The notes under the pieces are model-generated. The model did not search any database, was not told where the DNA came from, and saw only the letters and a program-made list of their open reading frames with translations. DNA of 42,682 nucleotides from Methylocystaceae bacterium (GTDB lineage Bacteria; Pseudomonadota; Alphaproteobacteria; Rhizobiales; Beijerinckiaceae), in NCBI GenBank assembly GCA_900299115.1, contig OMIO01000098.1, forward strand, positions 1-42,682. The letters run 5' to 3'. The position numbers and the translations under genes are program-made. Numbering within the stretch: position 1 is the first letter of the stretch; each line of letters begins with the position of its first letter. Positions 39,317 through 42,682 of the stretch are shown here, piece by piece.

Positions 39317-40153
39317 TTAAGTATTTTTACGCATTAACATGCCGCGAGCAGGATCATAGGCTATAAGCGCAGCGATCAGAAAAACAGCGGTGTAAGCGCT
39401 TACGGCGGCGCAAGAGATCCAATCAAATTTTTGATAGAAAGAAAAGCGGATCAGCTCAACGGCGTGTGTGAAGGGATTAAGGGCGCAAGCGTAATAAAGG
39501 TAAGGGCTCGATTCTTTTACGCGCCAAAGAGGATAAAGCGCGGAAGAGGCAAAAAACATAGGAAAAATTACGAAATTCATCACGCCAGCAAAATTTTCAA
39601 GCTGTTTAATCAAAGATGAGAGGACCATGCCAAGCGCCCCAAGCATGAGTCCGCAGAGAGCCAGGGCAGGTAAGACGGTCACATAGCCCCATAAGCTCGG
39701 CGGTTCAATTTCCCAAAAATACGCAATGAGTAAATAGGCATAGACTTGTAAGATAGAAACAAAAACGCCTGCAAAGAGTTTAGAGCTGAGCAAAAACCAT
39801 CGTGGAAAGGGAGAAATCAGCAGCGTGCGCATACTGCCCATTTCTCTGTCATAAACCATGGACAAGGAAGATTGCATGCCGTTGAAGAGCTGGATCATCG
39901 CCATCAATCCCGGCGTGATATAAACCTCATATAATATATAGGTGTCATAGGGGGGGATAATTGAAATCCCCAGCACTTGACGAAATCCAGCGGCAAAGAT
40001 GAAGAGCCAAACGAGTGGGCGCACAAGCGCAGAAATAAAGCGCTCGCGTTGATGTAAAAATCTAAGTCCCTCCCGCCAGACAATGCCCCAGAGACAAATC
40101 AAATATTGCCGAAGAGCAAGAGGTTTAATGCGGTCTTGCGCAGTCAAGCTCAT
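39317..40153 (-). CDS. ABC-2 type transporter permease, PQQ-alcohol-dehydrogenase-system associated (PedC-like)
   Basis: 278 aa; 'LVRPLVWLFIFAAGFRQVLG', 'YDREMGSMRTLLISPFPRWFLLSSKL'; six hydrophobic segments. Confidence 0.85.
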   Translation of the reverse strand: MSLTAQDRIKPLALRQYLICLWGIVWREGLRFLHQRERFISALVRPLVWLFIFAAGFRQVLGISIIPPYDTYILYEVYITPGLMAMIQLFNGMQSSLSMVYDREMGSMRTLLISPFPRWFLLSSKLFAGVFVSILQVYAYLLIAYFWEIEPPSLWGYVTVLPALALCGLMLGALGMVLSSLIKQLENFAGVMNFVIFPMFFASSALYPLWRVKESSPYLYYACALNPFTHAVELIRFSFYQKFDWISCAAVSAYTAVFLIAALIAYDPARGMLMRKNT

Positions 40154-40908
40154 ATTAAAGGCCTTTCGGCGTGATTTCCTGTGATTAAGGCGAATGCTTC
40201 GCTAATTGTAGCGGCTCCAGAATTTTTAATAATATGATCTGCGCGTCCTGTTGCGAGTATTTTTCCTTGATGAAGAATAATCACTTCGTCATCATGATCG
40301 ATCTCATCAATCAAATGCGTTGTCCAAAGAACGCTTAAGTTTTGCTCTTTCACAAGGCTGCGCACTTGCGCAATAAGGTCTGCGCGCGCCTTGATGTCTA
40401 AACCTACTGTAGGTTCATCGAGTAGGAGCAAATGTGGCGCATGCATCAAGGCGCGTAGAATTTCAACACGTCGCATTTGTCCGCCAGAAAGCGTGCGCGC
40501 TTTATCCTGTGCGCGTCCTGATAGGCCTGCGCGCTCCAGCGCAGCAAGACCTAAGGCGCGGGCTTTCTTGGGCTCAATGCCATGTAAAGCGGCGTGATAG
40601 AGTAGGTTTTGTATCAGACTGAGTTCAAGGTCTAAGGTGCGTGATTGAAAGACGACGCCTAGCTGACGTAACGCAGCGCTGGGGTGGCGAATAATATTAA
40701 GGCCAAAAATATTTATTTCGCCCTGTTGAGCAGCATAAAGACGCGTAATGAGGGAAAAAAGCGTTGTCTTACCAGCGCCATTTAACCCCAGTAAGACAGT
40801 AAATCGGCCTTGTGGCGTGGAAAATGTAACATCGTCAAGCGCTTTGCGCGCGCCATAGGCGTGGGTGAGGTTGGTTACGCAAAGGGCTGGAGTAGGTAGC
40901 GCGTTCAT
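40150..40908 (-). CDS. ABC transporter ATP-binding protein (PQQ-associated type)
   Basis: 252 aa; Walker A 'GLNGAGKTTLFS', signature 'LSGGQMRRVEILRAL', Walker B 'LLLLDEPTVGLD'; 4-nt overlap with the permease gene. Confidence 0.93.
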   Translation of the reverse strand: MNALPTPALCVTNLTHAYGARKALDDVTFSTPQGRFTVLLGLNGAGKTTLFSLITRLYAAQQGEINIFGLNIIRHPSAALRQLGVVFQSRTLDLELSLIQNLLYHAALHGIEPKKARALGLAALERAGLSGRAQDKARTLSGGQMRRVEILRALMHAPHLLLLDEPTVGLDIKARADLIAQVRSLVKEQNLSVLWTTHLIDEIDHDDEVIILHQGKILATGRADHIIKNSGAATISEAFALITGNHAERPLI

Positions 40909-41873
40909 TGCGGCGCCACGACAACGCCCCAGGGAAATGCTCCAACAGGGATAGATTTAATAACTTTAAGATTGGCGACGTCTATCACAGAAACGTCATT
41001 CGATACGCCATTTGCAGTGAGCAGATATTTTTCATCGGGCGTAAAGGCTAAATGCCATACGCGTTGACCAACGAGGAGATATTTCTCAACCTCTTTTGTC
41101 TGCGCGTTAATTACAGCGACGCGGTTTGCGGGACCAAGCGCAACAAAGGCGTGAGCGCCGTCGCGCGTAATCGAGACGCCTATTGGCTGAATGGCCTCCT
41201 TTGACAGGCCTGGGATGTCAAAGGAGATTTTTTGTTTGATCGTTTTTTTTTCAGGATCAATGACGCTAACTGTGCCGCCAACTTCTGAAGAAACCCAAAG
41301 CTCTGATCCATCATGTTTAAAAGTTGCAAATCTTGGACGGTTGTCTACGAGAATATTGGCAATAATTGTTTTTGTTTTTGTATCTATAATATGCGCCATA
41401 TTTGTTGTTTCGGACGTATTAACAAGTAATTTTCCATCAGGGCTAATCGCCATGCCCTCTGGCTCTACGCCAACTGGAATATCGCCGATTTGATCTTTGC
41501 GTTTAATGTCAATCAGCGTGACCAAATTATCGTTTTCATTGGAGACATAGATTGTTTCGCCATCTGGACTAAGCGTTAATAATTCTGGGTCAGGTCCCGA
41601 GGGCAGCTTGCCGATGATTTTTTGAGCCTTGGCGTCGAGCACTTGAATCGCATCATCATCGCCGGCGCAAATATAGAGTTCTGATCCATCCTTATTTAAT
41701 TCGACGCCGCGCGGCCGCCTGCCAACTTTAATAGTCGCGACGACATCGAGTTTATCGGTGTCTATAATGGAGATTGTGTTGCCTTTTTCATTGCTCACAT
41801 AAGCAAGATAGGCTGTAGCTGGAGAGGCGAAGGTTAAGGCTACAAAAATTAAAATTAGAAGCAATTTGTTCAT
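40905..41873 (-). CDS. YVTN-repeat beta-propeller protein (PQQ-dependent-catabolism-associated type)
   Basis: 322 aa; signal peptide, about seven ~42-aa repeats such as 'YVSNEKGNTISIIDTDKLDVVATIKVGRRPRGVELNKDGSELYI'. Confidence 0.9.
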   Translation of the reverse strand: MNKLLLILIFVALTFASPATAYLAYVSNEKGNTISIIDTDKLDVVATIKVGRRPRGVELNKDGSELYICAGDDDAIQVLDAKAQKIIGKLPSGPDPELLTLSPDGETIYVSNENDNLVTLIDIKRKDQIGDIPVGVEPEGMAISPDGKLLVNTSETTNMAHIIDTKTKTIIANILVDNRPRFATFKHDGSELWVSSEVGGTVSVIDPEKKTIKQKISFDIPGLSKEAIQPIGVSITRDGAHAFVALGPANRVAVINAQTKEVEKYLLVGQRVWHLAFTPDEKYLLTANGVSNDVSVIDVANLKVIKSIPVGAFPWGVVVAPQ

Positions 41874-42682
41874 TTTAGCCTACATTTGGTTTCGGGCTGA
41901 TCATAGCCGAGCGTGTCGAGTTCGCTGGTTTGATGAAGAAACCCCTCTTGCGGCGAGACAGATATAGTCATGCGTCCATCAGAAAGAAGAATGGGTTGGC
42001 GTAACTGCTGGTTCCAAGATCTAATCGTTAAACGGACGCCTTTGAACGCCGCAATTGAGAAATCTTTACCCAAAATATAGTTCAGCAAATCTGCCGGTCG
42101 ATTTGATTGCGTTCGCACCGCCGCCTCGCCGATCACGCGCATTGCAAGCCAAGCGGCGTTATCCCTTGAATTCATTGTCCGATGGTAATTTGTTATAAAT
42201 CTATTTTGTAGTTGATGGGCCCCCCATTGTTCATGAGCGGCGTCCCAATTGGTTGGATATAAGCCAGCTGAGCCGACAACAAGCTTTGGCTCCCACGTAT
42301 GGTAAGGTAAATAAGCGGCAAAGACATTGTTTTCATCAAGCGCAAGTAAGACATCATAGCCTGCGGCATTTTGAGTAAGCGTCGGCATTTGTCGTTGCGT
42401 TTGGACGGATCCTGAGTCGCTTCGGCGCCCACCGCCTGTGTCTTCGTAGAGTCTTTCTTCAATAATTTTTGCGCCAAATTTCTTAGCGGCCCGGCGATAG
42501 GCTTGCGCGAGCAAGTCATCTTCCGGATGTGAGCCCTTGATCAGGAGCCAGCGTCGCCATTGTTTCCAGATAAGATATTGCGCTAGTCCATCTGCAAGCA
42601 TTGCGCGATCGGGCGCAATATGAATGATATTCGCTCGACAATCTTCTTCGCGCAAACTCACATCGGACGCAGAGATATTGAA
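41870..42682 (-). CDS. ABC transporter substrate-binding protein (PQQ-alcohol-dehydrogenase-system type), 5' truncated by the window edge
   Basis: Reading frame stays open past the listed start: ...FNISASDVSLREEDCRANIIHIAPDRAMLADGLAQYLIWKQWRRWLLIKG; the 'start' at 42661 is an internal GTG (Val). Confidence 0.82.
   Translation of the reverse strand, partial: FNISASDVSLREEDCRANIIHIAPDRAMLADGLAQYLIWKQWRRWLLIKGSHPEDDLLAQAYRRAAKKFGAKIIEERLYEDTGGGRRSDSGSVQTQRQMPTLTQNAAGYDVLLALDENNVFAAYLPYHTWEPKLVVGSAGLYPTNWDAAHEQWGAHQLQNRFITNYHRTMNSRDNAAWLAMRVIGEAAVRTQSNRPADLLNYILGKDFSIAAFKGVRLTIRSWNQQLRQPILLSDGRMTISVSPQEGFLHQTSELDTLGYDQPETKCRLK

Follow-up and report, generated by a model that had tools for sequence, protein, structure and literature searches.

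The operon and its family assignment

What does a transporter carry that joins an export-type permease to an importer-type binding protein and a secreted beta-propeller? This question is raised by four genes at the end of the window, which here means the whole analysed stretch of 42,682 nucleotides, i.e., a complete contig (C98) of the genome under study (G000, in the following the own genome). The contig end cuts the gene of the binding protein. The assembly comprises 2,075,057 bases (2.07 Mb) in 195 contigs and is rated 98% complete. The propeller is 94% identical to those of its closest named relatives, and by these relatives the host is predicted to be a small-genome Methylocystaceae/Methylocystis bacterium, i.e., a Methylocystis-type methanotroph.

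All four genes are encoded on the minus strand between positions 39317 and 42682; the binding protein comes first, followed by propeller, ATPase and permease (Table 1). The plus strand reads TCAT at each of the three junctions, i.e., start and stop codons share 4-nt ATGA overlaps, which confirms the chain of successive overlaps noted in the preliminary description of this DNA. Among about 70 related loci, the ATPase-permease overlap is -4 in 58. The junctions between binding protein and propeller and between propeller and ATPase are more variable among relatives, partly because start codons were chosen automatically. The gene order is kept in relatives, and therefore the arrangement is not due to chance.

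Table 1. Genes of the operon and their start/stop overlaps in the window.
Feature	Position	Strand	Evidence
LutA/PedA1-type periplasmic binding protein, type I (Leu/Ile/Val-like) fold, 5' end missing at contig end	41870..42682	-	TIGR03863, Foldseek
LutB/PedA2-type secreted seven-bladed YVTN beta-propeller, 322 aa, signal peptide ending ASPATA	40905..41873	-	TIGR03866, structure model
LutE/PedB-type ATPase, 252 aa	40150..40908	-	TIGR03864
LutF/PedC-type ABC-2 (DrrB-like) permease, 278 aa	39317..40153	-	TIGR03861, PF01061
ATGA overlap, binding protein stop / propeller start	41870..41873	-	sequence
ATGA overlap, propeller stop / ATPase start	40905..40908	-	sequence
ATGA overlap, ATPase stop / permease start	40150..40153	-	sequence

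Profile searches were carried out with the NCBIfam models of the PQQ-linked (PQQ-alcohol-dehydrogenase) ABC system at their curated cut-offs, and with Pfam. The propeller (TIGR03866, 514 bits, cut-off 287), the ATPase (TIGR03864, 324 bits, cut-off 302) and the permease (TIGR03861 phenyl_ABC_PedC, 391 bits, cut-off 241) all pass, and the permease matches PF01061 (ABC2_membrane) as well. The truncated binding protein reaches 383 bits with TIGR03863 (cut-off 413.6) over profile positions 87-347, approximately 86 N-terminal profile positions being lost at the contig end. The full-length binding proteins of the same operon in the two nearest relatives score 447 and 454 bits and thus exceed the cut-off. 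The family matches together with the structure models bear out the unusual pairing, remarked on earlier, of an ABC-2 permease with an importer-type binding protein and a secreted seven-bladed propeller.

Judged by these models and by published descriptions, rather than by direct alignment to the proteins of Methylorubrum extorquens AM1 or Pseudomonas putida KT2440, the four genes are the predicted Methylocystis version of lutABEF/pedA1A2BC. The operon is a further example of an already known transporter type and not a new system; this type, a lanthanide importer, has been defined by mutants. The earlier view that the transported substrate is not established is out of date, as lanthanides were identified as the substrate in 2019-2020 on the basis of mutant, uptake and electron-microscopy data (PMC7391723, PMC6839425). 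In a 2026 review, PedA1A2BC is regarded as a lanthanide transporter (PMC12997753).

Co-occurrence with lanthanide-type dehydrogenases

A general role in PQQ metabolism or enzyme maturation predicts that the system also occurs in genomes with only calcium-type enzymes, while a lanthanide role predicts its absence there. We compared 211 other alphaproteobacterial genomes with a completeness of at least 90%, searching for LutA at E <= 1e-40 and for PQQ alcohol dehydrogenases (ADH) at E <= 1e-100, with up to six dehydrogenase candidates scored per genome. The type of each dehydrogenase was read from the second residue downstream of the catalytic Asp: Asp at this place indicates the lanthanide type, and Thr, Ser or Glu calcium or other types. 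This second Asp is the marker of lanthanide-type enzymes described in PMC9291206.

LutA was found in 24 of the 31 genomes with at least one D-x-D ADH, a class in which some proteins may not use lanthanides, in none of the 22 genomes with other types only, and in 2 of the 158 genomes without an ADH hit. Fisher's test gives p = 3.5e-9 when counted by genome, although genomes are not independent; counted by taxonomic family, the contrast is 17/22 versus 0/12 (p = 2.3e-5). The calcium-type comparison is thus a genome-scale test that separates lanthanides from PQQ in general as the reason why these genes travel together, and its outcome argues against a general PQQ role.

Speaking against the lanthanide reading, seven genomes (G043, G064, G096, G160, G233, G241 and G242) carry a D-x-D ADH without LutA; these may possess another lanthanide importer or may not use lanthanides. 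Two genomes have LutA without an ADH hit: a partial dehydrogenase is present in G200, and G151, which likewise counts against this reading, shows only remote matches and no credible ADH.

Gene neighbourhoods in related genomes

The gene neighbourhoods of relatives were read by tblastn. As in the window, the operon is followed in Methylocystis relatives by a conserved hypothetical gene and infC. The fullest island upstream comprises genes for a MauG-like di-heme protein, a response regulator, a histidine kinase, a DUF1614 protein, a LutH-like receptor and lanmodulin (LanM), and then lutABEF. The lanmodulin of Methylocystis islands matches NF053806 above its cut-off. By our own count of loci in the Methylocystis group, LanM precedes lutA in 17 and LutH lies within the island in 11. 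A LutH-like receptor and lanmodulin usually accompany the transporter, but not in every case. The operon is located within 15 kb (<=15 kb) of PQQ-ADH genes in 10/24 class-level and 4/4 order-level genomes which have both. These neighbours, the family models and the published work on the ped genes of P. putida support the connection, proposed earlier, with PQQ alcohol dehydrogenases and with the Ped system. Gene identity, order, co-occurrence and neighbours are established in the present analysis.

Three further observations concern this region. In the two nearest relatives (L034, L035) a MauG-like gene abuts lutA, and the receptor, lanmodulin and two regulators are absent from the site; compared with L047, L053 and L054, the lut island of the closest relatives thus lacks lanmodulin, LutH and the two-component regulator. 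The di-heme enzyme directly upstream of lutA (L034:294-1349, L035:5661-6761) is MauG/MbnH-like, scoring 191 bits with TIGR04039, which is below the cut-off, and such an enzyme is found repeatedly next to the lanthanide island of Methylocystis genomes. Finally, 195 plasmids, mainly from Sinorhizobium, Pseudosulfitobacter, Azospirillum and Rhizobium, carry propeller homologues (records H1-H15), so at least the propeller part of the system is often plasmid-borne.

Proposed function and alternatives

In M. extorquens AM1, growth on methanol with La is abolished in lutE and lutF mutants and slow in lutA and lutB mutants; when lutA, lutE or lutF is mutated, La deposits remain in the periplasm (PMC7391723). 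P. putida without pedA1A2BC requires approximately 100-fold more La for PedH-dependent growth, whereas PedE (Ca) growth and pedH expression are unaffected by the deletion (PMC6839425). Against an import role, no lanthanide deposits were visible in KT2440. Pseudomonas aeruginosa PAO1, which has no rare-earth-dependent enzyme, is without PedA1A2BC (PMC12997753). That lanthanides need the transporter to enter the cytoplasm was shown for AM1 and deduced for P. putida; by homology, the same may be extended to the operon of the window.

We read the operon as the lutABEF/pedA1A2BC lanthanide transporter, which imports lanthanides across the inner membrane, and give this reading a probability of roughly 0.87. 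Free or chelated lanthanides would cross the outer membrane through a LutH-like TonB receptor. LutA, together with the propeller LutB, would present them to the LutE-LutF ABC-2 transporter, which would use ATP to move them into the cytoplasm, where the imported metal would serve XoxF-type PQQ methanol dehydrogenases. Permeases of the ABC-2 class usually export, so the case for import is built on the published mutants and on the accompanying binding protein, and a permease of an exporter class is apparently importing. We infer the direction of transport for the LutABEF protein set as well as the form of the ligand (ion or chelate); the cited lut and ped literature yielded no assay that directly measures transport or binding by a LutA, LutB, LutE or LutF protein.

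The opposite direction is very improbable. As an exporter, the complex would secrete a compound that chelates lanthanides (a lanthanophore), PQQ or an assembly factor, with binding protein and propeller acting outside. This would suit a permease and an ATPase which are otherwise closest to the DrrAB exporters, and methylotrophs do make lanthanide chelators, e.g., methylolanthanin (PMC11317620). However, the La that accumulates in AM1 lutA, lutE and lutF mutants does so in the periplasm (PMC7391723). Export of PQQ would moreover be needed for calcium-type enzymes too, yet LutA is missing from all 22 genomes with only non-lanthanide types, and growth on PedE is independent of the transporter (PMC6839425).

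It is very improbable that the operon encodes a periplasmic device for maturation of, or metal insertion into, PQQ dehydrogenases instead of a transporter. Such a device would account for the frequent vicinity to PQQ-ADH genes counted above, but not for its absence with calcium-type enzymes; furthermore, lanthanide alone activates apo-PedH in vitro (PMC6839425), and lanthanide is mislocalised in the AM1 mutants (PMC7391723). We rejected a generic PQQ or maturation role on the 0/22 count. The preliminary description had considered a sensing, cofactor, metal or maturation device. Its metal option stands, maturation falls with the missing co-occurrence, and sensing is disfavoured in P. putida because pedH is expressed independently of the transporter.

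That the operon encodes an ordinary importer of branched-chain amino acids or an ordinary exporter of drugs or polysaccharides is scarcely credible, and this reading was rejected: LutA has a LivJ/AmiC fold and the permease is of the ABC-2 type, but the Peripla_BP_6 match of the binding protein is weak (48 bits for the complete protein, 28 bits for the truncated copy of the window) while the PQQ-ABC models score hundreds of bits, and the neighbourhood in relatives consists of lanthanide-use genes.

Structure models of binding protein and propeller

A full-length homologue of the binding protein was modelled with moderate confidence (pLDDT 74) and shows a type I Leu/Ile/Val-binding fold; Foldseek retrieves LivJ/AmiC-type proteins. 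The propeller model has 28 strands in seven blades of four (mean pLDDT 94), and the nearest solved fold is the archaeal YVTN propeller 1l0q (TM 0.87). A sequence search of solved structures yielded no relative of LutA or LutF and only generic propellers for LutB; thus, no ligand site can be transferred from a known complex.

Conservation in LutB is lopsided. Near-invariant residues make up 83% of the B-C loops and 65% of the D-A loops, which form one face, compared to 0% of the C-D loops on the opposite face and 39% of the A-B turns. The conserved face carries E29, D72, D74, D95, E113, E137, E155, D177, E197 and E226 together with R53, R179 and R271, and E97, E139, R55 and R181 are located just inside the adjoining strands. 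Conserved loops on the same side may be common to YVTN propellers in general. According to the model, this acid-rich face is a putative interaction face that could bind metal or chelate, and we infer that LutB acts through it as a docking or hand-over protein.

A more specific role is tentative and rather doubtful: LutB could be a periplasmic chaperone for lanthanides or lanthanide chelates, its face with near-invariant Glu/Asp and Arg taking the metal from LanM or LutH and passing it to LutA or directly to the importing ABC-2 permease. If true, such a chaperone would do for lanthanides what the AztD-AztC relay does for zinc, and a permease of the exporter type would import by an unusual mechanism.

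Comparison with described systems

The LutABEF system of M. extorquens AM1 has the same four components, i.e., binding protein, exported protein, ATPase and membrane component (PMC7391723). Its lut cluster contains lutH and lanM, like the Methylocystis relatives of the window, whereas in the own genome both genes lie on a contig other than lutABEF. By locus numbers, lutC and lutD are inserted between lutB and lutE in AM1 (PMC7391723), while the four genes of the window are contiguous and overlapping. PedA1A2BC of P. putida KT2440 (PMC6839425) is the same four-gene operon without insertions, and the window permease scores above the PedC model cut-off. In P. putida, the operon lies inside the ped cluster with pedE, pedH and pedS2R2 and without a LutH homologue; the host of the window, in contrast, is a predicted methanotroph with a LutH-like receptor and LanM.

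The AztABCD zinc system pairs a propeller-type metallochaperone, AztD, with a binding protein, AztC. It likewise combines a periplasmic propeller, a metal-binding protein and an ABC transporter, but the resemblance is one of layout only, as the permease and binding-protein types differ; the AztD model gives 22.5 bits with the window propeller at a cut-off of 400. The DrrAB and NodIJ ABC-2 exporters share the fold class of ATPase and permease. The window proteins score well below the DrrAB and NodIJ cut-offs, and these exporters are without binding protein or propeller.

Lanthanide and PQQ genes elsewhere in the genome

The own genome encodes pqqC (350 bits, cut-off 240) and contains four 5' fragments of PQQ methanol/ethanol dehydrogenase genes, each cut by a contig end, which is the expected outcome when a fragmented assembly contains multi-copy genes. 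Of the genes proposed as a check in the preliminary description, PQQ dehydrogenase fragments and pqqC are thus present in the genome, and PQQ dehydrogenases adjoin the operon in many relatives, so this check did not refute the PQQ link. A DNA pattern search of the own assembly did not find the D-x-D metal motif of XoxF, most likely because the multi-copy dehydrogenase genes are broken at contig ends, leaving only the 5' fragments. The PQQ dehydrogenase of a Methylocystis relative (L026) has a DYD motif.

The small contig C167 encodes a lanmodulin that scores just below the cut-off (134.1 bits, cut-off 135) and, convergent to it, a LutH-like TonB receptor which shares 59% identity with the one adjacent to lanM-lutABEF in L054. 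By these sequence matches, the own genome is predicted to have a receptor in the outer membrane, a lanthanide protein in the periplasm, a transporter in the inner membrane and the enzyme class that uses the metal.

At the C terminus of the C167 receptor (L119:2054-5026, minus strand; also L120:2079-5561), an extra region of approximately 300 aa resembles a second outer-membrane barrel; in the L120 homologue, this region gives a weak match to PF13505. Comparably long open frames (about 1170-1190) exist in several Methylocystis genomes, and the L054 receptor (828 aa) is without the extra region.

Three of the four dehydrogenase fragments, on contigs C95, C26 and C62 (L115:2-730, L116:2-457 and L117:2-985), show, in front of the XoxF-like core, an added N-terminal segment with a related helical motif (about 60-100 aa). 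In the C62 copy, the N terminus is extended by another 190 aa or so with a likely membrane segment, and C26 and C62 are identical over 121 bases up to the contig break.
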